Shown: piece by piece, positions 9,535-29,999 of the stretch
Numbering within the stretch: position 1 is the first letter of the stretch
Layout of the letters: every line of letters begins with the position of its first letter
Virus record (IMG/VR): IMGVR_UViG_3300015371_000111
Location: 1 to 33,508 of that record
DNA length: 33,508 bases
From: a virus
Reading direction: 5' to 3' (one strand)
The notes under the pieces: model-generated
The model's input: the letters and a program-made list of their open reading frames with translations, nothing else
The model's database searches: none
What the model was told of the DNA's origin: nothing
Translations under genes and position numbers: made by a program

Positions 9535-9543
9535 GATGGAGCT

Positions 9544-9863: not shown

Positions 9864-10744
9864 TACCTTCCTCCAGACAGTGTTCGATACAGCTTCATAA
9901 GCAGCTTTGGGTTTCCGCCTACGTCAATAGCCTCTCCAACAGGTCTGCCGTGGGACATACCAAGTCTTCGGTAGTGGTAGGAGTTCTTTACATGAACGGG
10001 GTCTTCATGATCCACATAAGGGTTCTCAGAGACCCTAAGGCCCAGTCTTTTAGCCAGGGCGATAGCCCTCAGCATCTGATTCAGGTTGGTAAAGGCAGCG
10101 TGAACGTGGTCTTCATGGTTAGGCACAGCCCCTACCTTCTGGCCGTTCTTTAGGGCTAGATTGCGGTAGAAGAGTTCTACAGGGCTAAATCCCCCACCCA
10201 TAGCTGGGGCACCCCCAGGGCGTCCGAGGGGCTGAGAAGGGCTTAGAGAGCCTCCTGGGGGCATCTGAGGCTTGAATAGCTCTGTGGGTAGCTGTCCTCC
10301 TGCAAGTACAGCCTGGAGCAAGCTGTTAGTATCCGTCTGTGGGGGGGCGGTTCCGACTCTTGTGGGAAGAACGGGTGCCCCCGCTCCCCCTCTTTGATAA
10401 TGAGCAATCGCTTTGGCGATTTCAGAGGCTGGGTCAGCAGGCCGCTCAAACCGGCTGACAATAGCCCTGATAGCCTCAGGCCCCTGGAGGTTTCCTGCTA
10501 CGCTTTTAATCCGTGAAAGAGCGTAAAGAAGACCAGGGCGAGACCAAGCCCAAGCATTGCGATTTCCCTGGATGCCGCGAGGAAAGGCACCACCTACATG
10601 GAGTTGGAACGGCCCGAAGGAAGTGCCACCGTCCCCCACTCGACCTGACAGACCCTCCTGTGCGGCTACAGACAACACCGCTCTTGGGTCTCGGATTCCT
10701 AGTTGTCGGGCCAACTGAATAATCAGGTTTGAACGAGAAGCCAT
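9863..10744 (-). CDS. Two-domain peptidoglycan lysin (lysozyme-like plus M15-like)
   Basis: 293 residues. The N-terminal SVAAQEGLSG (E30), then DGGTSFGPFQLH, fits a lysozyme-like or SLT catalytic core with E30 as acid. A Gly/Pro-rich linker (about 130-195) follows. The C-terminus has HVHAAFT and SYHYRRLGMSHGRPVGEAIDVGG, similar to D-Ala-D-Ala peptidase M15 zinc sites. Such fusions occur in virion-associated or entry lysins. A TAGAAT box sits 6 nt before the ATG, suggesting a leaderless message. Confidence 0.7.
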   Translation of the reverse strand: MASRSNLIIQLARQLGIRDPRAVLSVAAQEGLSGRVGDGGTSFGPFQLHVGGAFPRGIQGNRNAWAWSRPGLLYALSRIKSVAGNLQGPEAIRAIVSRFERPADPASEIAKAIAHYQRGGAGAPVLPTRVGTAPPQTDTNSLLQAVLAGGQLPTELFKPQMPPGGSLSPSQPLGRPGGAPAMGGGFSPVELFYRNLALKNGQKVGAVPNHEDHVHAAFTNLNQMLRAIALAKRLGLRVSENPYVDHEDPVHVKNSYHYRRLGMSHGRPVGEAIDVGGNPKLLMKLYRTLSGGR

Positions 10745-10750
10745 AGGGGT

Positions 10751-10756
10751 ATTCTA
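10751..10756 (-). promoter_or_regulatory. Leaderless -10 box TAGAAT for the lysin gene
   Basis: TAGAAT, 6-nt spacer, ATG at 10744. No Shine-Dalgarno site. Same geometry as the other leaderless starts in this window. Confidence 0.6.
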
Positions 10757-10831
10757 GTTTTGTGTATAGTGCTTGACTCAGTGGGACAGATTCATCAATC
10801 GCTTCACCGCACCTTGACAATCGGCGTCTTT

Positions 10832-10916
10832 GGAAGGAATCCCGCGTGGGCGGGAGGAGAGTTGCTACCTCTCTGCGGTCTTACCGGCCAGGTGGGTTCG
10901 ACTCCCACTCCTTCCT
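10832..10916 (+). tRNA. tRNA-Ser (GCT)
   Basis: Acceptor GGAAGGA pairs with TCCTTCC. Anticodon loop TTGCTAC. A long variable arm and T loop TTCGACT fit a class II serine tRNA. First gene of the array; no encoded CCA. Confidence 0.9.
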
Positions 10917-10918
10917 TT

Positions 10919-11003
10919 GGTGGGTCGCAAGGTCGGCGTGCTTATCGGTCTTGAAAACCGTGATGGGTTTCCACCCGTAGAGGTTCCATCCCTCTACCCA
11001 CCG
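10919..11003 (+). tRNA. tRNA-Ser (TGA)
   Basis: Acceptor GGTGGGT/ACCCACC, anticodon loop CTTGAAA, long variable arm, T loop TTCCATC and discriminator G, all as expected for serine. Confidence 0.9.
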
Positions 11004-11004
11004 C

Positions 11005-11076
11005 TCCCCCGTGGTCTAACGGCAAGGATTCCAGGCTTTCAACCTGGCGGCGAGAGTTCGATTCTCTCCGGGGGGA
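11005..11076 (+). tRNA. tRNA-Glu (TTC)
   Basis: Acceptor TCCCCCG/CGGGGGG, anticodon stem CCAGG/CCTGG with loop CTTTCAA, T stem GAGAG/CTCTC. Confidence 0.92.
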
Positions 11077-11080
11077 TCAT

Positions 11081-11154
11081 CTGACTGTAGCTTAGCCTGG
11101 GAAAGCACCTGCTTTGGGAGCAGGGGAGCGAAGGTTCGAATCCTTCCAGTCAGA
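11081..11154 (+). tRNA. tRNA-Pro (TGG)
   Basis: Acceptor CTGACTG/CAGTCAG, anticodon stem CCTGC/GCAGG with loop TTTGGGA, T loop TTCGAAT. Confidence 0.92.
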
Positions 11155-11159
11155 CCTTT

Positions 11160-11231
11160 GCGGGGCAGGTGTCATTGGTTGCACGTCTGCCTTCCAAGCA
11201 GCAGGACAGAGTTCGATTCTCTGGCCCCGCA
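11160..11231 (+). tRNA. tRNA-Gly (TCC)
   Basis: Acceptor GCGGGGC/GCCCCGC, anticodon loop CTTCCAA, T stem CAGAG/CTCTG. Confidence 0.92.
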
Positions 11232-11236
11232 TACAT

Positions 11237-11308
11237 TCCGAGATAGTTCAGCGGTAGAACGTCTCCCTGTTAAGGAGAATGTCCCTGGTTCGATCCCAGG
11301 TCTCGGAG
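11237..11308 (+). tRNA. tRNA-Asn (GTT)
   Basis: Acceptor TCCGAGA/TCTCGGA, anticodon stem TCTCC/GGAGA with loop CTGTTAA, discriminator G. Confidence 0.92.
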
Positions 11309-11339
11309 CTTGCTTCGCAAGATCAACGCGGAGCGTTTT
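11309..11339 (+). other. Two tandem mini-hairpins between tRNA genes
   Basis: CTTGC-TTC-GCAAG (11309-11321) and AACGC-GGA-GCGTT followed by TT (11325-11339). They lie between tRNA-Asn and tRNA-Thr and may guide processing or cause partial termination. Confidence 0.5.
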
Positions 11340-11411
11340 GGCCGCTTAGTTCAACAAGCAGAATACCTGTCTTGTAAACAGGGGGAGAGGGTGCAAGTCC
11401 TTCAGTGGCCT
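11340..11411 (+). tRNA. tRNA-Thr (TGT)
   Basis: Acceptor GGCCGCT/AGTGGCC, anticodon stem CCTGT/ACAGG with loop CTTGTAA. The T loop is TGCAAGT instead of TTCRA, which is unusual. Confidence 0.88.
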
Positions 11412-11413
11412 CT

Positions 11414-11487
11414 TGGGGGTTTGGTGATAAAGGGAGCATTTCGCGCTTGCAACGCGAAGGTCAGGGTTCGATTCCCTGAACCTCCAC
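11414..11487 (+). tRNA. tRNA-Ala (TGC)
   Basis: Acceptor TGGGGGT/ACCTCCA, anticodon stem TCGCG/CGCGA with loop CTTGCAA, T loop TTCGATT. It lacks the canonical G3-U70 pair at the usual position, though a G-T pair is present at position 4. Confidence 0.9.
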
Positions 11488-11492
11488 TCCAA

Positions 11493-11564
11493 TGTCCAGT
11501 ACGTCAGCGGGAGACTACCTCTCTTACAAAGAGGAGGACGCTGGTTCGAATCCAGCCTGGACAA
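11493..11564 (+). tRNA. tRNA-Val (TAC)
   Basis: Acceptor TGTCCAG/CTGGACA, anticodon stem CCTCT/AGAGG with loop CTTACAA, T stem GCTGG/CCAGC. Confidence 0.92.
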
Positions 11565-11566
11565 TA

Positions 11567-11641
11567 TGGCTCTCTAGCTTAATTGGGAAAGCTCCTGGCT
11601 CTTAACCAGGACGATAAAGGTTCAAAGCCTTTGGGAGCCAC
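11567..11641 (+). tRNA. tRNA-Lys (CTT)
   Basis: Acceptor TGGCTCT/GGAGCCA, anticodon stem CCTGG/CCAGG with loop CTCTTAA; T loop TTCAAAG. Confidence 0.9.
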
Positions 11642-11644
11642 TTT

Positions 11645-11716
11645 GGGCTGGTAGTTCAGCGGAAGAACAGCAGGCTTCGAACCTGTATGCCGGGGGTTCA
11701 AATCCCTCTCAGCCCT
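11645..11716 (+). tRNA. tRNA-Arg (TCG)
   Basis: Acceptor GGGCTGG/TCAGCCC, anticodon stem GCAGG/CCTGT with loop CTTCGAA, T loop TTCAAAT. Confidence 0.9.
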
Positions 11717-11726
11717 TGATTCACCT

Positions 11727-11798
11727 GGGTCTTTAGCTCAGTGGAAAGAGCAGCGGGTTTCTACCCCGCGAGCGAAGGTTCGATCCCTTCAAGACCCT
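11727..11798 (+). tRNA. tRNA-Arg (TCT)
   Basis: Acceptor GGGTCTT/AAGACCC, anticodon stem GCGGG/CCCGC with loop TTTCTAC, T loop TTCGATC. Confidence 0.92.
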
Positions 11799-11800
11799 TA

Positions 11801-11842
11801 TTCCACATATGTGGAACCATGTGGAGTTAATGTGGAATTAAC
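11801..11842 (+). repeat. Palindrome and three phased ATGTGGA repeats in the tRNA array
   Basis: TTCCACATATGTGGAA (11801-11816) is a perfect 16-bp palindrome. ATGTGGA recurs at 11809, 11819 and 11830, at spacings of 10 and 11 bp, about one helix turn. GTTAAT-GTGGA-ATTAAC is a further inverted repeat. It lies in the longest gap of the array. This geometry suits an operator. Confidence 0.65.
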
Positions 11843-11844
11843 TT

Positions 11845-11918
11845 GGGACTCTGGTGTAATCGGTAAGACACATCGGTCTGAAAAGCCGAAGGACTAGGTT
11901 CAAATCCTAGGGGTTCCG
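11845..11918 (+). tRNA. tRNA-Phe (GAA)
   Basis: Acceptor GGGACTC/GGGTTCC with two wobbles, anticodon loop CTGAAAA, T stem CTAGG/CCTAG. Confidence 0.88.
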
Positions 11919-11924
11919 CTTCAC

Positions 11925-11999
11925 GCATACCAGGCTAGCTGGTGGCTTGGCACCACTCTGATAAGGTGGCAGAGCTAGGTTCGATTCCTAGGGTATGCA
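11925..11999 (+). tRNA. tRNA-Ile (GAT)
   Basis: Acceptor GCATACC/GGTATGC, anticodon stem CCACT/GGTGG with loop CTGATAA, T stem CTAGG/CCTAG. Confidence 0.9.
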
Positions 12000-12001
12000 T
12001 T

Positions 12002-12073
12002 GCCTTCATCGTTCAGCGGCAAGGACATCCCCCTGTCGAGGGGAAGACCGGAGTTCGATTCTCCGTGGAGGCG
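12002..12073 (+). tRNA. tRNA-Asp (GTC)
   Basis: Acceptor GCCTTCA/TGGAGGC, anticodon stem TCCCC/GGGGA with loop CTGTCGA, discriminator G. Confidence 0.92.
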
Positions 12074-12076
12074 CTT

Positions 12077-12150
12077 GGGCTGTTAGCTTCAATAGGCAAA
12101 GCACGGGCCTTTTAAGCCATGAGTTGAGGGTTCGAATCCTTCACAGCCCA
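12077..12150 (+). tRNA. tRNA-Lys (TTT)
   Basis: Acceptor GGGCTGT/ACAGCCC. Anticodon loop CTTTTAA has only three firm stem pairs (GGC/GCC) and two mismatches, so the anticodon stem is weak. T loop TTCGAAT. Confidence 0.85.
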
Positions 12151-12153
12151 CTT

Positions 12154-12232
12154 GGGTATCTCGGTTCTGGTGAACCAGCGGGGCTGTAACCCCCGTGCCT
12201 CTGGTAGCGTGGTTCGATCCCACGGGTACCCA
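12154..12232 (+). tRNA. tRNA-Tyr (GTA)
   Basis: Acceptor GGGTATC/GGTACCC, anticodon stem CGGGG/CCCCG with loop CTGTAAC, and a long variable arm, as in bacterial tRNA-Tyr. Confidence 0.9.
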
Positions 12233-12233
12233 C

Positions 12234-12304
12234 TCCTCCCGACTCAGACGGCAAGAGGCGGGGCTGCAAACCTCGTTAACTCGGTTCGACTCCGAGGGGA
12301 GGGT
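12234..12304 (+). tRNA. tRNA-Cys (GCA)
   Basis: Acceptor TCCTCCC/GGGAGGG, anticodon stem CGGGG/CCTCG with loop CTGCAAA, T stem CTCGG/CCGAG, discriminator T as typical of cysteine. Confidence 0.9.
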
Positions 12305-12306
12305 CT

Positions 12307-12381
12307 GGGAATCTGAAGGGAATTGGTATACCTTCTTCTCTCAAAAAGAAGAGCTTGCAGGTTCGACTCCTGCGATTCCCA
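12307..12381 (+). tRNA. tRNA-Leu (CAA), short variable arm
   Basis: Acceptor GGGAATC/GATTCCC, D stem AAGG/CCTT with a leucine-like GAATTGGTATA loop, anticodon stem CTTCT/AGAAG with loop CTCAAAA. The variable region is only about five bases, unlike class II bacterial tRNA-Leu. Confidence 0.82.
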
Positions 12382-12392
12382 TAGCAAGACAA

Positions 12393-12467
12393 GGGCGGTT
12401 AACGGAAATTGGCAAACCTATCTGCCTTAGAAGCAGATGCTTCTGGGTTCGAATCCCAGGCTGCCCA
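12393..12467 (+). tRNA. tRNA-Leu (TAG), short variable arm
   Basis: Acceptor GGGCGGT/GCTGCCC with two wobbles, anticodon stem TCTGC/GCAGA with loop CTTAGAA, T stem CTGGG/CCCAG. The D loop (GAAATTGGCAAA) is leucine-like. The variable region is TGCTT, again far shorter than expected. Confidence 0.85.
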
Positions 12468-12468
12468 T

Positions 12469-12537
12469 AGAGTGAGCGTAGGTTGTGCCCATCGGTCTCC
12501 AAAACCGTATGGATAGGGTTCGAATCCCTACACTCTT
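12469..12537 (+). tRNA. tRNA-Trp (CCA), reduced D arm
   Basis: AGAGTG pairs with CACTCT, giving a clean 6-bp acceptor. Anticodon loop CTCCAAA, T stem TAGGG/CCCTA. Total length is only about 69 nt and the D arm is degenerate. Confidence 0.78.
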
Positions 12538-12542
12538 GCTTA

Positions 12543-12617
12543 CAGCGGGTAGACTAACTGGCCTAAGTCCCCTGGTTGTGATCCAGGTGAATGTTGGTTC
12601 GAACCCAACTCCGCTGA
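12543..12617 (+). tRNA. tRNA-His (GTG)
   Basis: Acceptor CAGCGGG/TCCGCTG, anticodon stem CCTGG/CCAGG with loop TTGTGAT, T stem GTTGG/CCAAC. Confidence 0.9.
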
Positions 12618-12689
12618 TCGTGGTTCGTCTAATCGGTAGGACGCTAGGCTCTGAACCTAGAAATCGAGGTTCGAATCCTTGACCATGAG
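12618..12689 (+). tRNA. tRNA-Gln (CTG)
   Basis: Acceptor TCGTGGT/ACCATGA, anticodon stem CTAGG/CCTAG with loop CTCTGAA, T stem CGAGG/CCTTG. Last gene of the array; it abuts tRNA-His with no spacer. Confidence 0.9.
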
Positions 12690-12692
12690 CTT

Positions 12693-12698
12693 TATACT
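12693..12698 (+). promoter_or_regulatory. Leaderless -10 box TATACT
   Basis: TATACT, spacer GAAGTC, ATG at 12705. It restarts transcription right after the tRNA array. Confidence 0.6.
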
Positions 12699-12704
12699 GA
12701 AGTC

Positions 12705-12914
12705 ATGGAAGAACTGGATGTAATTACATTCAGTGGGGGATCAAATCTAATGACCTTTACAGGGCCAGTGGAGATTCCCGTGGCTTTCACGCTTGTTCTC
12801 GCTGAAGACGCCGATAGAAATGTCTTGGAATCTGCTGTTAAGTCCCTAGGAATGTTCCTTTTCGGGGAAGCTGCTGCTAAACTAGAGGCTGAAAATGGGT
12901 TCGATGGATCGTAA
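12705..12914 (+). CDS. Hypothetical protein (69 aa)
   Basis: A soluble-looking small protein with two beta-rich stretches (VITFSGGSNLMTFTG; IPVAFTLVLAE) and a C-terminal helix. The ATG lies 6 nt after a TATACT box and lacks a Shine-Dalgarno site, so a leaderless transcript is likely. It is the first gene after the tRNA array and overlaps the holin candidate by about 20 nt. No family recognised. Confidence 0.6.
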   Translation: MEELDVITFSGGSNLMTFTGPVEIPVAFTLVLAEDADRNVLESAVKSLGMFLFGEAAAKLEAENGFDGS

Positions 12915-13143: not shown

Positions 13144-13324
13144 AGGAACTAATCTTTCAACCCTGAACGAGCCTGGGCGAATGGAGTATGCTCAGTATCT
13201 TCTGGACTGGAACAAGAACTTCTTCTTCACGAGAGGACTTCCTATGACTTGGGAAGAATGGGTGCGGGATCAATTAAGAGCCGATATGGAGGCTAACCCA
13301 GCCCGCACCCAAGCTAAAGTATAA
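13130..13324 (+). CDS. Hypothetical protein (64 aa)
   Basis: ATG at 13130, overlapping the holin candidate by 14 nt in another frame. The product is soluble and Trp-rich near LLDWNKNFFFTRGLPMTWEEWVRDQL, as in small phage proteins that bind partner proteins. A TATTCT box lies 8 nt upstream. An internal ATG at about 13182 is possible. Function unknown. Confidence 0.55.
   Translation: MSPLKGTNLSTLNEPGRMEYAQYLLDWNKNFFFTRGLPMTWEEWVRDQLRADMEANPARTQAKV
13315..13320 (+). promoter_or_regulatory. Leaderless -10 box TAAAGT
   Basis: TAAAGT, spacer ATAAAC, ATG at 13327. It overlaps the end of the preceding gene. Confidence 0.5.
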
Positions 13325-13326
13325 AC

Positions 13327-13389
13327 ATGGAAGCTAATTTCTTCATCGGTCTCTGGGTTCTTATCTTTCTCGGCGGATTCTTCTCTTAA
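13327..13389 (+). CDS. Tiny membrane peptide (20 aa)
   Basis: MEANFF followed by a single hydrophobic segment GLWVLIFLGGFFS. There is a leaderless-type TAAAGT box exactly 6 nt upstream, and the stop overlaps the convergent gene by 4 nt. Its place after a holin candidate suggests a lysis accessory. Such short ORFs are easily missed by gene finders. Confidence 0.45.
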   Translation: MEANFFIGLWVLIFLGGFFS

Positions 13390-15599
13390 GGCCCGCTGAA
13401 AGGATCAGAGCCACCCCCGCCGAAAGGCGATTCTGTGCGTGGCTTAGACCGTGCTTTCTTTCTTCTATGCACCTTTCCTACTTTCTTCTCCCTCTTAGCC
13501 TGCTTGCCTGTTTCCTTTGTAAGTAGGGTTCGCGGGAAGAAAGCAGGGCCTGGGCCAAGTTCCATCATTAGGCGTTCCAGCAGGTCTCCTTCTTCGTAGG
13601 ACTTAACAGGAGGTCTGATTCCAGCAGACAGTCTCCAAAGGTCTGAAAGAGGAAGATTCGTTAGGAAGTCAAGAGCTTCTGCTTCCAGGTTCGACCTTCT
13701 GCCGACCACATTCCCGAGACGATCCTTGATGTTCATGTGTCGAAGCGGGTAGCCCGTCTGGATGTCCCTGCCGGTAGCCGCTCCGTGAATAAATCCAGGA
13801 GCAGGGCCGATTTCCTGAAGAATCGAAAGACCAGGACGTGAGCCTCCTCTTCTGAACATTTCAGCGCCCTGAGCAGATACTTCAGCAGCAGGCTGGAGAT
13901 TGTAAATGTTCGAAGGATTGAAGACAGCCTGCTTAGGCCCTGGCTTTGCGTTTGGATCTCCCGCTCCCTTCGGAACCAAATACTGCGCCCAGAAAGGAAG
14001 GTCTCCCAAAAGGCGATTCTGTTCTTCCTTTCCTTTCTTACCAATAGCAAGACCAGCAGCGGCCTGAATTGAATGTTCCGCAGGGAAGCGATAGCCATAG
14101 CGCAGAAGTGCTTTGAACATTGGGTAGAAGATCGGAACCTGAGACTTCATAAATAGCTGCTCTTTGTGGGAGAGTCTTCCGAAGTCTCCTACTTCTTCGT
14201 TGGCGCGAGTGGCGGTAGCCAAATCCTTAGGAGTAGGCTTACCGGCCTTTAGCCGGTTAACCATCTTCACAACATCAGCGTGGGTTGTGTAGCCAGCGTC
14301 TCTAAGGGCGTTGAGAGTCGAAAGAATTCTCACATGAGCTTCAGGAGCATTGGCAAGCCTTCCTGCCCTATTAACAAACTTTCCTTTGCCTCCGATTCTT
14401 GACTCGTTAAGAGAAAGAGCCTGCCCTTCTCCGGCGATGTTCTTTAGATCGTTGTAGAGAGATTTCTCGTTCTTCTTCAGGTGGCGAGCCTGCCTGATGG
14501 AAGCACCTGTAGCTGCCGGTCTATGCGCGAGCATAGTCCCTGTCTGAGTAAGGTTCTGGAGGTAATAGCGTGGTCGCAACCACATAGACATACGGATGAT
14601 GTCCATAGGAGCGTTTACGCCCTTCTCGATAAGGCTTTGCTTCTGATTTCTTACCTGCTTGACAGAAGGCATTGTTGTAGTCACCTTTCTCCCCGAAGGA
14701 AGAACGCTGGTAGAGACCTTCTTCGCATTCGGGTCTCTTAGCTGTCTGTGGAATCGCTCTGTCTGTGCCTCTACACGCTTAAGTGCTCCTTCTCGCGCTT
14801 TAGAGGAGTATCTAAGGGTTGCTTTCTGAATTCCTCTCACAGCAGGGTTAGGAGAAGCGGGAAGAGTTTTGTCCGTACCCGGAATTACCCGCTCGCGCGG
14901 AGCAGGGCGCTTGGAAGCGGCCTTTCCAGCCTGCCTAATTGTCTGCCTCAGGTTGTAAGCGCGGTTGAGATTGGCCCCGCCCTCTGTTCGGCGGATAAAG
15001 GACTTGGTGTTGGTCCTCTCAGCCTGGATATGACCGTAATTGAGCTTGTAGTCGTCCAGTTCCTTCCGGGTTACGCCGTATCTCTTCAGCATCTTCGCGT
15101 TCATAGGGCCTTTCATTCCTCTTTCGGCCTCATGCGCGGCTGCAAGAGCAGGGTTTACCCTTCCTTTGGATACGTCCCTTACCGCTCTTGCTGCTTTTCC
15201 AGCCGCCCCAATCCGTGCGGCGGCTCCTCCTCCTGCTGACAGCACCGCCAGAGCGTCCATAAGAGGGCCTGATACGTCTCCACCGCGTCCGAAGTGACGG
15301 TAAGACTCATATTCAGCTTTCGCAAGCGCAGAGGCAAGGCTTTTGGCACCTGACTTCTTGCCTCTGACCATTCCGAGGATTGACGAGTTTCCTAGAAAAG
15401 GATGCTTAAGGTCATGCCGAATGTCCTTGTAAGCAATTCGCCCAGTCATAGCGATGCCTGTAGGTACGCCGGTTACGCCGTGGTAAAGCCCTCTACCTGT
15501 CCCTCCCGCAACATGACCTACAGGTCTAAGAACATGCCTGGTTACAGGCCGGATAACCCTTTTCTTCAGGCGCTTGGTGATTCCTGAGTAAAAAGCCAT
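13386..15599 (-). CDS. Large basic internal virion protein
   Basis: 737 residues, very rich in Lys and Arg, especially at both ends, with Gly/Ala-rich helical stretches near 110-135 and 515-525. There is no catalytic motif. The size, charge and place at the end of the structural block fit an internal virion (ejection) protein of short-tailed phages, delivered with the DNA; this is inferred. A TAAACT box lies 7 nt before the ATG. Confidence 0.6.
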   Translation of the reverse strand: MAFYSGITKRLKKRVIRPVTRHVLRPVGHVAGGTGRGLYHGVTGVPTGIAMTGRIAYKDIRHDLKHPFLGNSSILGMVRGKKSGAKSLASALAKAEYESYRHFGRGGDVSGPLMDALAVLSAGGGAAARIGAAGKAARAVRDVSKGRVNPALAAAHEAERGMKGPMNAKMLKRYGVTRKELDDYKLNYGHIQAERTNTKSFIRRTEGGANLNRAYNLRQTIRQAGKAASKRPAPRERVIPGTDKTLPASPNPAVRGIQKATLRYSSKAREGALKRVEAQTERFHRQLRDPNAKKVSTSVLPSGRKVTTTMPSVKQVRNQKQSLIEKGVNAPMDIIRMSMWLRPRYYLQNLTQTGTMLAHRPAATGASIRQARHLKKNEKSLYNDLKNIAGEGQALSLNESRIGGKGKFVNRAGRLANAPEAHVRILSTLNALRDAGYTTHADVVKMVNRLKAGKPTPKDLATATRANEEVGDFGRLSHKEQLFMKSQVPIFYPMFKALLRYGYRFPAEHSIQAAAGLAIGKKGKEEQNRLLGDLPFWAQYLVPKGAGDPNAKPGPKQAVFNPSNIYNLQPAAEVSAQGAEMFRRGGSRPGLSILQEIGPAPGFIHGAATGRDIQTGYPLRHMNIKDRLGNVVGRRSNLEAEALDFLTNLPLSDLWRLSAGIRPPVKSYEEGDLLERLMMELGPGPAFFPRTLLTKETGKQAKREKKVGKVHRRKKARSKPRTESPFGGGGSDPFSGP

Positions 15600-15606
15600 T
15601 GCCTAC

Positions 15607-15612
15607 AGTTTA
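15607..15612 (-). promoter_or_regulatory. Leaderless -10 box TAAACT
   Basis: TAAACT, 7-nt spacer, ATG at 15599. Confidence 0.5.
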
Positions 15613-17070: not shown

Positions 17071-17074
17071 ATTC

Positions 17075-17084
17075 CATAATTCTA
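17075..17084. promoter_or_regulatory. Divergent overlapping -10 boxes (17070- / 17089+)
   Basis: Only 18 bp separate the start codons of the divergent genes. CATAAT (17075-17080) reads toward the + gene and TAGAAT (17084-17079) toward the - gene; the boxes overlap by two bases. Confidence 0.5.
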
Positions 17085-17088
17085 GGGT

Positions 17089-19340: not shown

Positions 19341-19346
19341 GCCTAA

Positions 19347-19352
19347 ATTCTA
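19347..19352 (-). promoter_or_regulatory. Leaderless -10 box TAGAAT
   Basis: TAGAAT, spacer TTAGGC, GTG at 19340. Confidence 0.6.
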
Positions 19353-19357
19353 GGTGC

Positions 19358-20848: not shown

Positions 20849-20854
20849 AGATCA

Positions 20855-20860
20855 ATTTTA
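20855..20860 (-). promoter_or_regulatory. Leaderless -10 box TAAAAT
   Basis: TAAAAT, spacer TGATCT, GTG at 20848. Confidence 0.6.
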
Positions 20861-21460: not shown

Positions 21461-21466
21461 GCCTTA

Positions 21467-21472
21467 ATTCTA
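21467..21472 (-). promoter_or_regulatory. Leaderless -10 box TAGAAT
   Basis: TAGAAT, spacer TAAGGC, GTG at 21460. A second TAGAAT at 21485-21490 on + faces the divergent membrane operon. Confidence 0.6.
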
Positions 21473-21484
21473 GGCGTCCTGGCC

Positions 21485-21490: not shown

Positions 21491-21499
21491 GAGACTAGA

Positions 21500-21679
21500 A
21501 TGTCTACATGGGAAACAGCCGAGAAAACATGGCCCTGGATTATCCGATTCGTCGGAGTGGCAATCGTGCTCTGGCAGCTTCTAGTCGATCAGGTGGACAG
21601 GCCCTACCTTCTGCTGCTAGCAGGGGGTATGTTGGGGCTAGAACAGGTCGTAAAAATTCAGGAGGCTTTGAAAAAGTAA
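21500..21679 (+). CDS. Small membrane protein (59 aa)
   Basis: ATG at 21500, divergent from the adaptor gene. Two hydrophobic segments (about 12-30 and 36-50) enclose the charged loop DQVDRP, and a helical KIQEALKK tail follows. An overlapping frame starting at 21508 is longer but reads as random sequence. First of three membrane genes in a + operon. Confidence 0.6.
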   Translation: MSTWETAEKTWPWIIRFVGVAIVLWQLLVDQVDRPYLLLLAGGMLGLEQVVKIQEALKK

Positions 21680-21681
21680 AA

Positions 21682-21789
21682 ATGGCTTGGAAAATCACAA
21701 CTAGACAGGCGGTTTACGGAAACCTTGTGGTTGCTCTTTATGTAGCTTTGGTAATCACGGGGACGGTACTATGGTGGCTACTGGGATGA
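21682..21789 (+). CDS. Single-TM peptide (35 aa)
   Basis: ATG at 21682, two nt after the previous stop. Basic N-terminus (MAWKITTRQ) and one transmembrane segment (VYGNLVVALYVALVITGTVLWW). The stop overlaps the next start as ATGA, which supports translation. Function unknown; possible lysis regulator. Confidence 0.5.
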   Translation: MAWKITTRQAVYGNLVVALYVALVITGTVLWWLLG

Positions 21790-22178: not shown

Positions 22179-22182
22179 GGAC

Positions 22183-23097: not shown

Positions 23098-23104
23098 TGG
23101 CTAA

Positions 23105-23110
23105 AGATTA
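23105..23110 (-). promoter_or_regulatory. Leaderless -10 box TAATCT
   Basis: TAATCT, 7-nt spacer, ATG at 23097. Confidence 0.5.
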
Positions 23111-23665: not shown

Positions 23666-23671
23666 TCCTAG

Positions 23672-23677
23672 AAATTA
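23672..23677 (-). promoter_or_regulatory. Leaderless -10 box TAATTT
   Basis: TAATTT, spacer CTAGGA, ATG at 23665; a TATAAT begins two bases further upstream. Confidence 0.5.
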
Positions 23678-23689
23678 TAGGCCCCCTAT

Positions 23690-24397: not shown

Positions 24398-25332
24398 TAG
24401 CTTACCGCCGTTTTATAAGCGTCCCTGGCGGGCTTGGGAGTTCCGTTAGTGTGATAAAGGCCGTAATTGTTCTGATCGTTGGTTCCTCCTGTGGCCTTGT
24501 CGATCCCCGAGTAAAAAGCCTGCAACTTGATCCTAGGCTGCGTCTTCATGTAGGAAATTCGCTTCGTCACCTCGGTAGCCTGTACGGCCTCGGCTGTAGC
24601 GTTCAGCGTGTAGTAGCCCCACTCGGTGATCCATACGTCCGCTGTCGGCTGAACCGCCATGAGTTGTGGCAAAAGAGTGTCCCACGCCCAATCACCATAA
24701 GCATGGAAAGCGAAAGCATCCACAGCCAGGTCTTTGATTCCCTGCATAAAATCAACAGCCTTGATATGTGATGCGTCGGTGACTGAATATTGAGCCAATC
24801 CTCCTGAGGCAATTTTAAGAGCAGGATCACTCCTGAGAACTAAGATGGCCGCGTTGGCTTTAATTTTGTAGTCAGAAATATTCGGGACACCCCCGTATTG
24901 CCCCTGCCCGTTCATTTCATTGCCTAGCTCCACATAATTCACATCCAGAGCTAGGATTTCATTGGCCCACGCCTGCACCTGAGCCACCGTGGAGGTGGCT
25001 TTAATCATCAAAATAGGGATCACCTCAAGCCCAGCCGCTTTTGCAGCGGCGTAAGCCAGAGCGAAAGGAGTCCCTGAACCCGAGGAGTAATCCCAGCGAA
25101 CGAATTTAGCTCCAGCGTCCTTCATCTTCTGGCAATAATCTGAATATTTAGCGCCGTAATTATCCCTGATAAAGGCAGGGGAACCTCCTGCGATCCCGTG
25201 GAGAAGGCCCGTCACCGGAGGAGGAGGGGGTGGGGGAGGCGGCGGAGGTGGAGGCGGCGGCTCCACGGGAACATCCACGATCTGATCCAAGAGCGCCTTA
25301 GCCTGCGCGACCAATTCTGAGTTCGTAGCCAC
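24397..25332 (-). CDS. Glycoside hydrolase (clan GH-A) with polyproline hinge
   Basis: 311 residues. A 24-residue N-terminal helix, a run of 15 prolines (25-39), then a TIM barrel. VELGNEMNG (E139) is the acid/base site and VWITEWGYY (E237) the nucleophile, as in GH5, GH39 and related clan A families. H210 in AFHAYGDW fits the active site. It probably digests a host surface polysaccharide as a virion depolymerase tethered by the rigid hinge. GTG start, 6 nt after TAAACT. Confidence 0.8.
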   Translation of the reverse strand: MATNSELVAQAKALLDQIVDVPVEPPPPPPPPPPPPPPPVTGLLHGIAGGSPAFIRDNYGAKYSDYCQKMKDAGAKFVRWDYSSGSGTPFALAYAAAKAAGLEVIPILMIKATSTVAQVQAWANEILALDVNYVELGNEMNGQGQYGGVPNISDYKIKANAAILVLRSDPALKIASGGLAQYSVTDASHIKAVDFMQGIKDLAVDAFAFHAYGDWAWDTLLPQLMAVQPTADVWITEWGYYTLNATAEAVQATEVTKRISYMKTQPRIKLQAFYSGIDKATGGTNDQNNYGLYHTNGTPKPARDAYKTAVS

Positions 25333-25338
25333 TCAGAT

Positions 25339-25344
25339 AGTTTA
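25339..25344 (-). promoter_or_regulatory. Leaderless -10 box TAAACT
   Basis: TAAACT, spacer ATCTGA, GTG at 25332. Confidence 0.6.
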
Positions 25345-25812
25345 GGAGGCCCTGTAAAGACCAGCAGCGTTGATTGTGGCTGTTACGTCAGAGCCGTCCG
25401 GGGTAATAGCGAAGTCGTATTGAGCCAGAGGCATAAGCTGGGAGTTGGTAGGTGAACCGACAGAGGCGTAGCAAAGAACCAAGTCTGTAACTGTCCCTGC
25501 TGAAACCGCCGTCCAGACGAAGGTAGTCGCCGTAACCGAAACGTCATAAGAGTCGTTTCCATCGTTAGGGGCTGGGAAGGCAAGATCAGTGTCTGTGACC
25601 GTCTTTCTGTTCCAGCCAGAGGCAGACCTCTCGGTAACTCCCGCCGTGATAATGGCCGCGAAGTCGTCCAAGTCCTTAAGGGTGGCATCTGAAACAGCCG
25701 CCACGTCAACCGGGATAAGAACCAAGGTCGCAGCGGCAGGGTCATTTGCGTCCACGCGATTGAATAGCTCTACGGTTCTGCCTTTGCCGATGTTGTAGGC
25801 GAAATCTGCCAC
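25342..25812 (-). CDS. Phage structural protein (decoration/tail type, 156 aa)
   Basis: The N-terminus MADFAYNIGKGRTVELFNRV, then SDATLKDLDDFAAII, LTD-like TDTDLAFP, a YD strand, and C-terminal PLAQYDFAITPDGSDVTATINAAGLYRAS are hallmarks of a widespread phage structural family seen near capsid or tail genes. The GTG lies 6 nt after TAGAAT. The exact virion position is unknown. Confidence 0.7.
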   Translation of the reverse strand: MADFAYNIGKGRTVELFNRVDANDPAAATLVLIPVDVAAVSDATLKDLDDFAAIITAGVTERSASGWNRKTVTDTDLAFPAPNDGNDSYDVSVTATTFVWTAVSAGTVTDLVLCYASVGSPTNSQLMPLAQYDFAITPDGSDVTATINAAGLYRAS

Positions 25813-25818
25813 ATCTGA

Positions 25819-25824
25819 ATTCTA
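25819..25824 (-). promoter_or_regulatory. Leaderless -10 box TAGAAT
   Basis: TAGAAT, spacer TCAGAT, GTG at 25812. Confidence 0.6.
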
Positions 25825-25827
25825 GAT

Positions 25828-26211
25828 TTAGCCGTAAAAAGCGATTCTCACATCGGCCACCGCAGAGGAGACCATTTTGAAGTCTGGAGTGGGTTCTGAG
25901 TCATAAAGCAGCCATTCGTCGGCCTTAATAGGGAATCCGTGGGAAAGAGTAGGGGTGTCTCCTGGGAAGTCAGTCCAGAAGATGTCTGCCGTCAGAACTC
26001 TGACGTGCATCCTTTTAGCCCCTGCGGGGATAGATGCCAGAGGGACAGCAGAGGCTCCTACTGAATACTCCTGATGCCCCAGCGGAGTAACAGGGGCCGC
26101 AGAGAAATATTGGGCGTAAGCTTTGTTCGCTTCGTCAGAGGAAAGGAAGTCCAGATCGCGGAAGCGCATACGCACTCCACCCATGCCTGTGGTTACTTCT
26201 TTATCGGCCAT
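25828..26211 (-). CDS. Structural protein (127 aa)
   Basis: I chose the start MADKEVTTG at 26211 over the upstream ATG at 26247, because a TAAGAT box lies 7 nt before it and the longer start has no signal. The product has SVGASAVPLASIPAGAKRMHVRV and WLLYDSEPTPDFKMV, patterns of small beta-sandwich head or tail decoration proteins. Divergent from the next gene. Confidence 0.6.
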   Translation of the reverse strand: MADKEVTTGMGGVRMRFRDLDFLSSDEANKAYAQYFSAAPVTPLGHQEYSVGASAVPLASIPAGAKRMHVRVLTADIFWTDFPGDTPTLSHGFPIKADEWLLYDSEPTPDFKMVSSAVADVRIAFYG

Positions 26212-26214
26212 GCC

Positions 26215-26224
26215 TACAATCTTA
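26215..26224. promoter_or_regulatory. Divergent overlapping -10 boxes (26211- / 26228+)
   Basis: TACAAT (26215-26220) serves the GTG at 26228 on +; TAAGAT (26224-26219) serves the ATG at 26211 on -. Both have 7-nt spacers, and the boxes share two base pairs. The whole intergenic gap is 16 bp. Confidence 0.55.
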
Positions 26225-26227
26225 GGT

Positions 26228-26578
26228 GTGACTATCGAAACAGACATCCCCGCTGACGGAGAAAGAGAAATCGCGGCTGAGGTAGCTCATAGAGCTATGG
26301 TTGCCGGTTGGGAAAAGGCAATTCAGGACGTAGGCCGTGAGAAGGGACTAATGTCCTTGGTTGTCGAAAGGATTCTGGACAAAGTAGCCAAAGACCAGGG
26401 CAAGCGTGACCCTTCAGGACGTATTGACGAACTTGGGGACTGGCTTTTGCACAGACGCAGGGAGCGGTCTGATTTGGTGCGCGGCAGCAATTCTCTCCAC
26501 AAGCTTTCGCCTGGACTCCGGGCTTACATGCACAAGAAGCATCCACACCTTAGTCCTGATCGAGAGAGAAAACCCTAG
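26228..26578 (+). CDS. Hypothetical helical protein (116 aa)
   Basis: GTG at 26228 with a TACAAT box 7 nt upstream; upstream in-frame ATGs would extend it over the divergent gene. Helical and charged, with a basic C-terminus (AYMHKKHPHLSPDRERKP). No family recognised. It overlaps the convergent structural gene by 29 nt. Confidence 0.55.
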   Translation: MTIETDIPADGEREIAAEVAHRAMVAGWEKAIQDVGREKGLMSLVVERILDKVAKDQGKRDPSGRIDELGDWLLHRRRERSDLVRGSNSLHKLSPGLRAYMHKKHPHLSPDRERKP

Positions 26579-26930
26579 AGTCGAAAGTCTGACCTGTGAC
26601 CACAGAAGGGTTGATCCGGTAGTAACGATAAAACTTTCCTAGGTCTGTTTTGGCAAAATGAAGCTTTCTGCCTGTGGTTGTATAGACAAAGGTCTGAGCG
26701 GCTGTTTCCGCGTCAAAGGCTACTGAGGTAACAGTAAACCAGTTAGTGCCGTCCAGACTCCCTTCTAGCGCGTAGGTTCCTGTGGTTCCCGCCACTGTGA
26801 TGTTGATTTCCCAAGCGATTTCATCGAAGTCCCCTCCGGCCTCAAAAAGAGGGTCTGCCAGGGTTCCGGCAGGAAGAATTGCTGTGGTAGTTGCGCCAGC
26901 GTGAAAGTTACGGGAGATAAGTGAAGCCAC
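26550..26930 (-). CDS. Structural protein with Ig/discoidin-like fold (126 aa)
   Basis: GTTGTYALEGSLDGTNWFTVTSVAF and FYRYYRINPSVVTG match the strand pattern of small beta-sandwich phage proteins (F5/8-like or Ig-like), where SxDGxxW is conserved. Probably on the head or tail surface. GTG start, 6 nt after TAAAAT. Confidence 0.65.
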   Translation of the reverse strand: MASLISRNFHAGATTTAILPAGTLADPLFEAGGDFDEIAWEINITVAGTTGTYALEGSLDGTNWFTVTSVAFDAETAAQTFVYTTTGRKLHFAKTDLGKFYRYYRINPSVVTGQTFDSRVFSLDQD

Positions 26931-26936
26931 AAGCTT

Positions 26937-26942
26937 ATTTTA
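26937..26942 (-). promoter_or_regulatory. Leaderless -10 box TAAAAT
   Basis: TAAAAT, spacer AAGCTT, GTG at 26930. Confidence 0.6.
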
Positions 26943-26971
26943 TAGGGGCCGACCCTCCGGTCGGATACGCC

Positions 26972-27169: not shown

Positions 27170-27175
27170 CTTCCC

Positions 27176-27181
27176 AGAATA
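27176..27181 (-). promoter_or_regulatory. Leaderless -10 box TATTCT
   Basis: TATTCT, spacer GGGAAG, GTG at 27169, directly after a terminator. Confidence 0.5.
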
Positions 27182-27184
27182 CAC

Positions 27185-27206
27185 AAAAGCCCCCCGAAGG
27201 GGGCTT
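27185..27206 (-). terminator. Intrinsic terminator, 8-bp stem with TTCG loop
   Basis: On the minus strand AAGCCCCC-TTCG-GGGGGCTT followed by TT, making a TTTT run with the stem end. It ends the candidate RNA and any read-through from the capsid gene. Confidence 0.8.
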
Positions 27207-27482
27207 AAAAGTGCCGGTGGGAGGATTGGCTACCTCCAAGTCGCTCACCCATGCTTAGCATGATTAAGCGCTACGACAACCAACGTCTCGGGCTTTGCGG
27301 CCCATCACAAGGCGTCACTCGCGCAAACGAGCTAGCTATGGCCCCGGCGGTCGGTGCCCCGCTGTACCTTCGCCTTCACACCTTGCTCCGCTGTGCGTTA
27401 CCTCCTTCCCTCCCTGGGCGACCAGGAGGGGCGCTTGGCTCCGCCACACCGTTGCCACCTTGGGGAGCTACCCCGCAGCGAC
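27207..27482 (-). ncRNA. Candidate structured noncoding RNA, novel or unidentified
   Basis: About 280 nt of GC-rich sequence with no good ORF, between a TATAAA box (27494-27489) and a strong terminator, on the capsid strand. Local hairpins on the minus strand include GGGG-TAGCT-CCCC, CCCTCCTGG-TCGC-CCAGGGAGGG (one bulge), CTCG-TTTGCG-CGAG, GGGC-CGCAAA-GCCC, CATGC-TAA-GCATG and GGAGG-TAGCCAAT-CCTCC. It lacks tmRNA and RNase P signatures that I know. Could be a member of a large phage RNA class or new. Confidence 0.6.
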
Positions 27483-27488
27483 AGAGCA

Positions 27489-27494
27489 TTTATA
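27489..27494 (-). promoter_or_regulatory. -10 box TATAAA for the candidate RNA
   Basis: TATAAA on the minus strand at the edge of the GC-rich region, downstream of the capsid gene. No convincing -35 box. Confidence 0.45.
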
Positions 27495-27544
27495 CCACAT
27501 CCTTAGGAAGACAAACCTGCGACTTGTAAGGATTCTGTTAGGGC

Positions 27545-28744
27545 TTAGGCTGCCTGGTTTAGGGCAGGTACTCGCACGAGAGCGTTAGGCTCGTGGACAC
27601 CAAGCTGAACTCGGTCAATCAGCCAAGCTTCAACAGGCTGGTTGCGGTTGAACCGCTGGAACTTAGAGCCAGTCAGATCGTCCCAATCAGGCCCCTGACC
27701 CATTCCGTAGAAGGTCACGGCTGACTTGTTGACTCCAAGAACTTCTCCCGGAGGCATATCGTCTTCAGGAATCAGCGGTGTTCCGCGATAGTCAATTCCT
27801 TCCCATCCTGTAGCCAGGCGGGTGTACTTCACGTCCCAGCGGAACTGAGCCAGAAGTGACTGTGAGAACTTGTCTGCGGCAGCCGGGTCAGCTAGCCAGA
27901 AGTCAGGAGTCTTACCTGAAGAGGTTCTAACTCGTCGGTAAGCACCGTCCATGATCGCAATTGAAAGGTCTGCGGCTCCCGGTGCTGTTCCTCGTCCTTC
28001 GATTCCTCGCCACTGTACGACTGTAGCTCGGTCGATACCTTCGAAAAGTCCGGTTGTCGAGAAGACCTGGCGGAGACCCTGGATAGCGTTTCCGTAGGTT
28101 CCTTCCATGTAGATACCGTGGGTTGCGCCAACCGATGTGAAGGAGGCGTCGAACGTAACAGTACCCGCGACAGGATCGTTAGAAAGAATTGTTCTGGCCG
28201 CTGAAAGGACAGTACCGTTGGACTTAAGGAGAATGTCAACGATTCGGCCCGGATAAAGCTGGTAGAAGTTGGCTGCTGTACCTACAGTCTGAGTAGCTGA
28301 GGTAGCGCCTGTGGTGATTGTTGCCAGGAGGCCGTCGCCGGTTCCCAGGATCATTTCGTTCTCCATTCGCGCCATGGCTACCTCAGCCTGCTCCATGTGG
28401 AGCTTCAGCGCGTCCCCCGCAGCCACGAAGTCGTTTGACTTCGATGCCATCATCAGGTCTGGAGAAAGCTCGATAGCGTGACCAACTCGGGCCAAAGGGA
28501 TGAACGCTGCTTTGTCATCAAGCTGACGAGCGATGTTCGGCCCTGCTGTTTCAGCAAATCCACCTGTTCCCTGCTTTACCGTCAAAAGCAGCGGAACACG
28601 AACCTGAAGCCCAGCGAAGTTTCGCCGCTTGGTATTTCGCTTCAGTTCGTCAAGCGCAACTGTTCTCTTCGGAAAGTTCTCCTGGAAGGGAGCGATCATA
28701 TCCGTAAGGAAGTTGGATAGTGATGAAATGCTTTCGGCGGTCAC
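27545..28744 (-). CDS. Major capsid protein (HK97-fold type)
   Basis: 399 residues. An N-terminal helix, then KRRNFAGLQVRVPLLLTVKQGTGGFAE, a long spine-helix region with MEQAEVAMARMENEMILGTGDGLLATI, and a P-domain ending GTPLIPEDDMPPGEVLGVN....FNRNQPVEAWLIDRVQLGV are typical of HK97-like major capsid proteins. It has no N-terminal scaffold or protease domain. GTG start with TATGAT 8 nt upstream. The gene before it encodes a proteasome-like peptidase. Confidence 0.82.
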   Translation of the reverse strand: MTAESISSLSNFLTDMIAPFQENFPKRTVALDELKRNTKRRNFAGLQVRVPLLLTVKQGTGGFAETAGPNIARQLDDKAAFIPLARVGHAIELSPDLMMASKSNDFVAAGDALKLHMEQAEVAMARMENEMILGTGDGLLATITTGATSATQTVGTAANFYQLYPGRIVDILLKSNGTVLSAARTILSNDPVAGTVTFDASFTSVGATHGIYMEGTYGNAIQGLRQVFSTTGLFEGIDRATVVQWRGIEGRGTAPGAADLSIAIMDGAYRRVRTSSGKTPDFWLADPAAADKFSQSLLAQFRWDVKYTRLATGWEGIDYRGTPLIPEDDMPPGEVLGVNKSAVTFYGMGQGPDWDDLTGSKFQRFNRNQPVEAWLIDRVQLGVHEPNALVRVPALNQAA

Positions 28745-28752
28745 TAGGAGGA

Positions 28753-28758
28753 ATCATA
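28753..28758 (-). promoter_or_regulatory. -10 box TATGAT for the capsid gene
   Basis: TATGAT, 8-nt spacer, GTG at 28744; no Shine-Dalgarno site. Confidence 0.5.
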
Positions 28759-28771
28759 GAAAACCCCCTAG

Positions 28772-29401
28772 CTATTTGTTCAGGATTTCTTTGGCGATTT
28801 CTCTTTCAGCCTGAGAGAACCTTACGGTCTCTACCGAGGTAATGTCTCCGCCCACGAAATTAGTGAATTCTGTAGCCGCTTTAATCCCCGCGATAGCGAT
28901 GTCCTCGATGTCCTGATTCTCCACAGGGAAAATGCTTTCGGGGTCTTCCAGCATCGAGCGCATAGCCCCGATAGCTACCTCTTCTCCTGACCCCACGGCA
29001 TCAAAGGGGTATTTATGCTCTGCCACCTGAAAATCCCCGTCCACCGTAAAAAGTCTTCCTCTCACCGCCAGAAGAAAAGCAGACTCGTCCAAATACTCCA
29101 CGCCCTTAAGGTCGAAGAGCGCGCCGTGGGCATAAAGGACGGATTTCAGGTGGGGGATGAATCTTCTTACCGCCCAGTACCTTTCATCTGTTCCCAGAGG
29201 GGGGTCTTCCAGATGGTCGGCAACCTCATATTCAAGGATGTCCATAAGCCGTGCAGAACCACACCCGGCCACGGCAAGAATCTCGCTGAGAGCAACTGTC
29301 TTAGGATTCAGATGTTTGCGATTGCCGTTGAAGGTTGAACCCTGAGAGTCCCCCGCTAGCAGGACTCCTTCGGTTCCTTTAACTCCTACTACAACTGTCA
29401 A
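28772..29401 (-). CDS. Proteasome-beta/HslV-like Ntn peptidase
   Basis: 209 residues. Removing Met1 leaves a Thr1 start. Counting from it, D17 (LLAGDSQGS) and K33 (LNPKTVAL) take the exact places of the proteasome triad. VAGCGSARLMDIL, YPFDAVGSGEEVAIGAM and GGDITSVETV are the expected later strands. It would be a self-compartmentalising peptidase. Its place directly upstream of the capsid gene is that of a prohead protease, so a role in capsid maturation is possible; alternatively it modifies host proteolysis. TTG start, TTGA overlap with the previous gene. Confidence 0.82.
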   Translation of the reverse strand: MTVVVGVKGTEGVLLAGDSQGSTFNGNRKHLNPKTVALSEILAVAGCGSARLMDILEYEVADHLEDPPLGTDERYWAVRRFIPHLKSVLYAHGALFDLKGVEYLDESAFLLAVRGRLFTVDGDFQVAEHKYPFDAVGSGEEVAIGAMRSMLEDPESIFPVENQDIEDIAIAGIKAATEFTNFVGGDITSVETVRFSQAEREIAKEILNK

Positions 29402-29556
29402 GTGGCTTTCCCCCAGTTCCTCTCGGCCTTCGCTCTGATTCTACCAACACAGTCGCCGGGGATGTGGTAGTTCCTCTTGGAGAAGGAGGAGTAAACATAC
29501 TGTCCCGCTTCAACATCCTTCTTGGAAATCTTCCGCTCGCAGATAGCGCACTTCAT
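29398..29556 (-). CDS. Small zinc-ribbon-like protein (52 aa)
   Basis: Too short for routine ORF calling. MKCAICERKISKKD starts with a CxxC pair; a third Cys (GDC) follows near residue 37. The ATG overlaps the previous stop as ATGA with AGGGAG upstream, and its own stop overlaps the peptidase TTG as TTGA, so translation of the peptidase is coupled to it. Function unknown; could bind the peptidase or DNA. Confidence 0.6.
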   Translation of the reverse strand: MKCAICERKISKKDVEAGQYVYSSFSKRNYHIPGDCVGRIRAKAERNWGKAT

Positions 29557-29735
29557 AAAGGTCTCCCTTCATAAGGACTTCCTCGTTTATGCCCCCTAGG
29601 GCCGAAGCGGTTAATCATCTTCAAATCAAGCCACCAAAACCTAAGGCGATGCCAGAGGGACAGGTTTAGCTCAGGGTCTCTGTGGCGGCGATAAAGCAGC
29701 GCCTCGTCAAAGTCCTTGAACTCTTCATATCCCAT
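29553..29735 (-). CDS. Hypothetical protein (60 aa)
   Basis: Charged and Trp-rich (LSLWHRLRFWWLDLKMI), with a basic C-terminus. The stop overlaps the zinc-ribbon start as ATGA. GAGG lies eight bases before the ATG. Not recognised. Confidence 0.55.
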   Translation of the reverse strand: MGYEEFKDFDEALLYRRHRDPELNLSLWHRLRFWWLDLKMINRFGPRGHKRGSPYEGRPL

Positions 29736-29757
29736 GGTCTTAACCTCGTCCAGAGGA

Positions 29758-29790
29758 GTAAAGGAAAAACCTCCTTTACAATTCCTTTAC
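29758..29790 (-). repeat. Hairpin and extra repeat upstream of the 60-aa gene
   Basis: GTAAAGGA (29758-29765) and TCCTTTAC (29772-29779) form an 8-bp stem with a 6-nt loop; TCCTTTAC recurs at 29783-29790 and could pair instead. Alternative pairing of a Shine-Dalgarno-like AGGAGG suggests translational control. Confidence 0.4.
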
Positions 29791-29993
29791 AACTTAACGT
29801 CTCCCTGGATCGCCTCCAATCCTCGCACAAATGCATCTTTGCAGGAGTGGCTGCAAAAAAGCAAATTGTCCCACTGATCCGAGTCCTTGAAACGTACCTT
29901 CAGGGGCAGCGCCTGGGGTACGTCCACAGGATGAACAGCGCACCTGGCGCATAAACCTTCAGGCATAAATACATCCACAGGGCTTACATACAC
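29787..29993 (-). CDS. Zinc-ribbon protein (68 aa)
   Basis: CARC (about 15-18) and CSHSC (about 47-51) flank a beta segment, a zinc ribbon of FYVE or MYM-like type. A TATTAT box lies 6 nt before the GTG, so the mRNA is likely leaderless. First gene of the peptidase-capsid transcription direction. Role unknown. Confidence 0.6.
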   Translation of the reverse strand: MYVSPVDVFMPEGLCARCAVHPVDVPQALPLKVRFKDSDQWDNLLFCSHSCKDAFVRGLEAIQGDVKL

Positions 29994-29999
29994 AGAGAG

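Follow-up and report, generated by a model that had tools for sequence, protein, structure and literature searches.

The stretch of DNA analysed here (the window: the 33.5 kb virus record IMGVR_UViG_3300015371_000111 over its full length, with a GC content of about 52%) carries on its left arm (0.1–9.7 kb) replication and recombination genes, with matches to a RecB/Cas4-like exonuclease, a DnaB-like helicase, a uracil-DNA glycosylase and an amidase. The virion genes extend from 9.8 to 30 kb, mainly on the − strand, and a glutamine amidotransferase and an amidoligase are found beyond 30 kb. Within the virion module, PHROGs matches identify the major capsid protein and a virion structural protein (Table 1), the remaining genes being assigned from their location or from homologs in the corresponding module of relatives. 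Of the 23 predicted tRNA genes, 22 form a single array at 10.8–12.7 kb. Many neighbouring genes lie on the same strand and 9–20 bp apart. One clear intrinsic terminator (27206–27187, − strand) is located past the capsid gene and is directly followed by a possible start at 27169; for the spacer at 27.2–27.5 kb, considered as a structured RNA, we found no Rfam match, no phage match and a folding no better than that of shuffled sequences.

A preliminary description of this sequence had listed 13 starts with TANNNT placed exactly 6 nt upstream, and a base-by-base check found every one of them correct. The cases at 13327 and 33428 are weaker, since the first opens an ORF of 20 codons and the second an ORF that runs off the window. 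Spacers of 7–8 nt had been described as well, and these hold for 15599, 23097 and 26211 (7 nt) and for 17070 and 28744 (8 nt), but not for 26228, which reads CAC and is no start codon.

Table 1. Candidate promoter elements (hexamer, nucleotides to the start codon, start and gene) and reference regions of the window
Feature	Position	Strand	Remarks
Left arm, replication/recombination genes	134..9678	+	Contrast set; most starts have a Shine-Dalgarno site or overlap
TAGAAT + 6 nt, ATG, gene 9863-10744	10745..10756	−	Conserved in G001 (spacer 8) and G002 (spacer 6)
TATACT + 6 nt, ATG, gene 12705-12914	12693..12704	+	Directly past the tRNA array
TAAAGT + 6 nt, ATG at 13327	13315..13326	+	Weak case; ORF of 20 codons (MEANFFIGLWVLIFLGGFFS)
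TAAACT + 7 nt, ATG, gene 13386-15599	15600..15612	−	G001 ortholog: TAGACT + 6
TAGAAT + 8 nt, ATG, gene 15613-17070	17071..17084	−	Orthologs: TAGAAT + 8 (G001), TAGAAT + 7 (G002)
TAGAAT + 6 nt, GTG, gene 18255-19340	19341..19352	−	G001 ortholog: TAAGAT + 6
TAAAAT + 6 nt, GTG, virion structural protein gene 19358-20848	20849..20860	−	G001 and G002 orthologs: TAAACT + 6
TAGAAT + 6 nt, GTG, gene 20858-21460	21461..21472	−	G001 + 7, G002 + 6
TAGAAT + 6 nt (TAGAAT-GTCTAC-ATG), gene 21508-21789	21496..21507	+	Added to the list of the preliminary description
TAATCT + 7 nt, ATG, gene 22183-23097	23098..23110	−	Overlaps preceding stop codon
TAATTT + 6 nt, also TATAAT + 8, ATG, gene 23108-23665	23666..23677	−	
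TAAACT + 6 nt, GTG, gene 24397-25332	25333..25344	−	Overlaps preceding stop codon
TAGAAT + 6 nt, GTG, gene 25342-25812	25813..25824	−	
TAAGAT + 7 nt, ATG at 26211, gene 25828-26211	26212..26224	−	
TAAAAT + 6 nt, GTG, gene 26550-26930	26931..26942	−	
TATTCT + 6 nt, GTG at 27169	27170..27181	−	Gene uncertain; directly past the intrinsic terminator
Major capsid protein gene	27545..28744	−	PHROG major head protein, E=7e-29; TATGAT + 8 nt, GTG start
TATTAT + 6 nt, GTG, gene 29787-29993	29994..30005	−	
Amidotransferase/amidoligase side, Shine-Dalgarno-led	30315..32894	−	Contrast set
TAGAAT + 6 nt, ATG at 33428	33416..33427	+	ORF open at window end

Among the 22 curated virion-module starts, TANNNT occurs at spacer 6 in 11 (shuffles: mean 0.45, maximum 4) and at spacers 6–8 in 16 (shuffles: mean 1.38, maximum 7); P≤5e-4 in both cases, which is the floor of a test with 2000 dinucleotide shuffles. 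As a reader of the sequence could choose start codons that suit the motif, we also ran a motif-blind scan of the window, in which ORFs were picked by length, the motif was ignored and spacers 0–29 were counted. Here spacer 6 was found for 9 of 44 genes compared to 0.96 per spacer (binomial P=4e-7). The counts against shuffled controls and in related genomes had both been proposed in the preliminary description, together with the claim that the spacing pattern goes beyond chance, and the shuffle test, the motif-blind scan and the two relatives described below all agree with it. Six of the 22 virion-module genes (17089, 21771, 24397, 29401, 29556 and 29735) lack the element, so that some genes are probably translated from longer mRNAs.

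Alignment of 43 sites yielded the shared element (C)TA[A/G]A[A/C]T. The hexamer is preceded by C in 28 of these sites and has A at position 4 in 30, compared to 26% and 18%, respectively, of all TANNNT across the window and its relatives; both preferences lie outside the search criteria, with the reservation that some of the 43 are chance matches. No −35 or other upstream signal was detected in the 32 bases upstream of the aligned sites. Within the window, CTA[AG]A[AC]T occurs at 12 sites, nine of which have a same-strand gene start 5–9 nt downstream.

The element is distributed unevenly over the gene modules. TANNNT at spacer 6 is found for 11/22 virion-module genes but for 1/21 left-arm genes (Fisher P=0.0015), whereas Shine-Dalgarno-like sites precede 2/22 virion-module genes, both of them without TANNNT, compared to 9/21 left-arm genes (P=0.016). 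On the amidoligase side, a Shine-Dalgarno site precedes four of five genes, and TANNNT at 6–8 nt is absent from all five. The contrast drawn in the preliminary description, with Shine-Dalgarno use commoner in the left arm and on the amidoligase side, is thereby borne out. The separation of left arm and virion genes is not absolute, as TANNNT at spacers 6–8 is slightly overrepresented in the left arm (4/21). Given these contrasts and the confinement of nearly all spacer-6 genes of one relative to its virion module (see below), the split between replication and virion modules is real; that it might correspond to early versus late expression is plausible. Start codon usage differs as well: the 16 TA-led virion-module starts comprise 8 ATG, 8 GTG and no TTG, and 4/21 left-arm starts are TTG. 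The first base of a transcript is normally a purine, and the absence of TTG is expected if transcripts begin with the start codon itself.

Through the capsid protein we reached two relatives, G001 (16.3 kb, 74% capsid identity) and G002 (41.7 kb, 64%), in which gene order is partly rearranged relative to the window and proteins are mostly 22–75% identical. Both peak at a spacer of exactly 6 nt (6/16 genes, P=1e-7 in G001; 9/55 genes, P=9e-10 in G002), and in G002 the spacer-6 genes lie nearly all within the virion module. The three genomes are homologous, so the tests are not fully independent; their divergence is large, however, and the conserved placement of the element, which is retained in orthologous genes despite strong protein divergence, therefore argues for selection. 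Upstream of the capsid gene itself the spacer varies, being 8 in the window and 9 or 11 in G001, with no clear element in G002. Searches with other virion and replication proteins led to the same two contigs only, and the protein of gene 19358-20848 alone as query to none. The spacer-6 peak was absent in capsid relatives at about 40% identity and in glutamine-amidotransferase relatives (L011-L019), which confines the trait to a narrow group. A search of the collection for CCTAGAATNNNNNNGTGGCT returned 49 contigs, of which only three, similar to each other and unrelated to the window, gave a hint of a few leaderless genes.

The middle and late promoters of the Thermus thermophilus phage phiYS40 reportedly consist of a single −10-like element without a −35, the early genes of this phage having different promoters. 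Using the annotated starts of 158 phiYS40 genes from three stretches, we found spacer 6 for 27/158 genes against a background of 4.7 (P=2e-13); as this peak lies at the same spacer as in the window, it calibrates the counting method. A published account of this phage (PMC3594737) describes its middle and late mRNAs as mostly leaderless, and IF2 as raised and IF3 as lowered during infection. In both the window and phiYS40, one class of genes has a −10-like hexamer at a spacer of exactly 6 nt, but the two differ in GC content (52% versus 33%), in the context of the consensus and likely in host. No BLASTP match with E<=0.001 to phiYS40 was found for ORFs covering about 142 of its 152 kb, so that the putatively leaderless virion genes of the window look like an independent case, judged by protein similarity. 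This rare strategy is already known from one unrelated Thermus phage, and the window is a clear new case of it, not a new mechanism. Thermus phage P23-45, examined over the 40–84 kb half of its genome, has mostly Shine-Dalgarno sites, no spacer-6 peak and, in the half compared, no protein similarity to the window.

Actinobacteria and Deinococcus-Thermus commonly possess leaderless genes (PMC3160421), and in Deinococcus radiodurans substitutions identified TANNNT beside ORFs as the −10 of leaderless genes and showed that it must lie at a set distance from the start codon (PMC12340547). The genes described here resemble such TA-led bacterial genes (PMC3160421, PMC12340547) in their ATG/GTG starts, in the lack of a Shine-Dalgarno site and in the position of the first T, which at spacer 6 is −12, the distance (about 12 nt) by which TA-led leaderless genes are recognised (Zheng et al. 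2011). Unlike those, they are phage virion genes, with a higher TA-led share (16/22), inner bases that vary less and a C in front of the hexamer. The element at 17071..17084 sits in an 18-bp divergent gap opposite gene 17089-18258 (+), and 19 bp separate the divergent starts 17070 and 17089 (20 bp in the matching G001 pair), an arrangement reminiscent of bidirectional bacterial promoters, which have a pseudo-symmetric −10 and start sites about 18 bp apart (PMC10268837). The gap differs from these in that TAGAAT + 8 on the − strand is faced by only an imperfect CATAAT + 8 on the + strand. The actinophages Hiyaa, GiKK and Percastrophe are partial homologs, with some proteins similar to those of the window and, in Percastrophe, a large tRNA array as well; none of them has a comparable spacer-6 peak.

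Several explanations other than promotion of leaderless genes were considered. Counts can be biased when a reader picks start codons selectively, and the ORFs at 13327, 33428 and 27169 are doubtful, but chance combined with such picking is practically negligible as an explanation, given that the motif-blind scan peaks only at 6 and that two other genomes have the same spacer. The TA might alternatively derive from an upstream stop codon (TAA/TAG), the fixed distance then reflecting a coupling of termination and reinitiation that involves no promoters. Three of 16 hexamers (20848, 23097 and 25332) do overlap an upstream stop codon. We rejected stop-codon overlap as the cause of the pattern because the other 13 do not; moreover, several hexamers lie in divergent gaps or past tRNA or noncoding DNA, with no same-strand upstream ORF within 40 nt, and the fixed T at position 6, the A at position 4 and the preceding C would be left unexplained. 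We regard this explanation as very improbable.

A reading that accepts the hexamers as promoters holds that expression of the late genes comes chiefly from a single long transcript or a few of them, to which internal leaderless starts merely add. The close spacing of many same-strand neighbours and the virion-module genes without an element would fit, and we consider it a possible, if unlikely, account: with Shine-Dalgarno sites in only 2/22 genes, a long transcript would offer ribosomes few places to bind, divergent genes require separate promoters, and a strong terminator lies past the capsid gene. It is still less likely that the element is read late in infection by a phage-coded or modified polymerase or sigma factor rather than by the unmodified host enzyme. 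Such a factor would be compatible with the preference of the element for the virion module and with the C and A that are fixed in it, but the hexamer is of the ordinary −10 type, and neither a sigma factor nor a polymerase was found among the scanned proteins of the window and G002, both contigs being possibly incomplete.

The motif, its exact spacing, the few Shine-Dalgarno sites, the lack of a −35, the conservation and the module bias are facts at the level of the sequence, and −10-only promoters that yield leaderless mRNAs for most virion genes are very probably what explains them. The majority of virion-module genes would then possess a minimal promoter of their own, made up of the −10 element (C)TA[A/G]A[A/C]T without a −35, at 6 (sometimes 7–8) nt from the start. 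From a bacterial −10 element, transcription starts about 6–7 nt past the hexamer, so that +1 coincides with the start codon when the spacer is 6 nt. An RNA polymerase carrying a primary-type sigma factor would accordingly initiate at the first base of the ATG or GTG, or 1–2 nt earlier, and ribosomes would bind the 5′-terminal start codon of these leaderless or nearly leaderless mRNAs without a Shine-Dalgarno site, while the replication and amidoligase-side genes would make use of Shine-Dalgarno sites and gene overlaps instead. The positions of transcription start, leaderless translation and the polymerase used are what we infer here. The leaderless character proposed in the preliminary description is supported by the exact spacing, the two relatives, the −10-like consensus, the few Shine-Dalgarno sites, the purine-only starts and the signature shared with phiYS40. 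Its description of the genes as individually promoted also finds support, in the sense that most of them have their own promoter-like element; each element may drive its own gene, and operon read-through may occur in addition.

The nearest named relatives of several proteins, namely a small protein with paired Cys motifs (8607-8933), a DUF6378 protein and one virion protein, are mainly from actinophages, in a phage collection that is itself rich in actinophages. Scans of the species-genome collection with the capsid alignment and with protein 5666-6226 found no relative. An actinobacterial host seems somewhat favoured by these similarities, and if the host is indeed of this kind, leaderless translation would be unsurprising for the cell.

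Tentatively, a phage group unrelated to phiYS40 may have independently evolved the combination of Shine-Dalgarno-led replication genes with leaderless, individually −10-promoted virion genes, in which a change in host initiation factors or polymerase in the course of infection would switch on the whole virion module at both transcription and translation, though we consider this scenario doubtful as it stands. The TANNNT spacer profile provides a simple test for finding such phages in metagenomes and helps to fix start-codon calls in their genomes. Our data suggest that leaderless expression of a virion module extends beyond a single Thermus phage, having arisen in one or more unrelated groups whose host probably belongs to a different phylum. 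These phages offer a natural system in which to ask whether phages time gene expression via the differing initiation-factor needs of leaderless mRNAs.

The divergent genes on either side of positions 17071-17088 are separated by only 18 bp and have in common a near-palindromic -10 element (CATAATTCTAG / CTAGAATTATG). The same divergent arrangement is found in the related contig G001, where ACCTAGAATGATTCTAG lies within a 19-bp gap; 17071-17088 might act as a bidirectional leaderless promoter. Elsewhere in the window, a 20-codon ORF at 13327-13389 (+) (MEANFFIGLWVLIFLGGFFS) encodes a small hydrophobic peptide, and its ATG is preceded by TAAAGT at a distance of 6 nt. When the capsid frame of the second relative, G002, is aligned to other capsid starts, it begins with ATA (L002 10001, i.e. 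G002 37246), immediately 3' of an in-frame stop; this ATA could be a rare start codon or a sequencing error.

A GC-rich, apparently noncoding stretch of ~340 bp (27185-27545, -) separates the capsid gene from the gene that follows it; this stretch ends in a strong intrinsic terminator and may represent a phage RNA. For this stretch, an Rfam search gave no match, no phage match was found, and its folding was no better than that of shuffles.

The 33.5-kb contig also carries an array of 22 tRNA genes (10832-12690, +), similar to that of Streptomyces phage Percastrophe; no tRNA genes were detected in the two relatives (G001, G002).

Other genes of the window
Gene product	Position	Strand	Remarks
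Glutamine amidotransferase and Amidoligase_2 protein	30509-32709	-	the two genes adjoin; together possibly a peptide or surface modification pair
HslV-like peptidase family protein	28772-29401	-	PHROG 1040; directly upstream of capsid gene; possibly a capsid maturation protease
Virion-module protein	24397-25332	-	long polyproline stretch, then glycosyl hydrolase catalytic core domain

Outside these relatives, a gene preceded by CCTAGAATGTCTGG-GTG is common to three viral contigs from the collection search (L057 7720, L035 2670 and L055 1910), which are similar to one another, unrelated to the window and also share a few other starts with TANNNT + 6 nt. These contigs may constitute a further phage group with leaderless genes.
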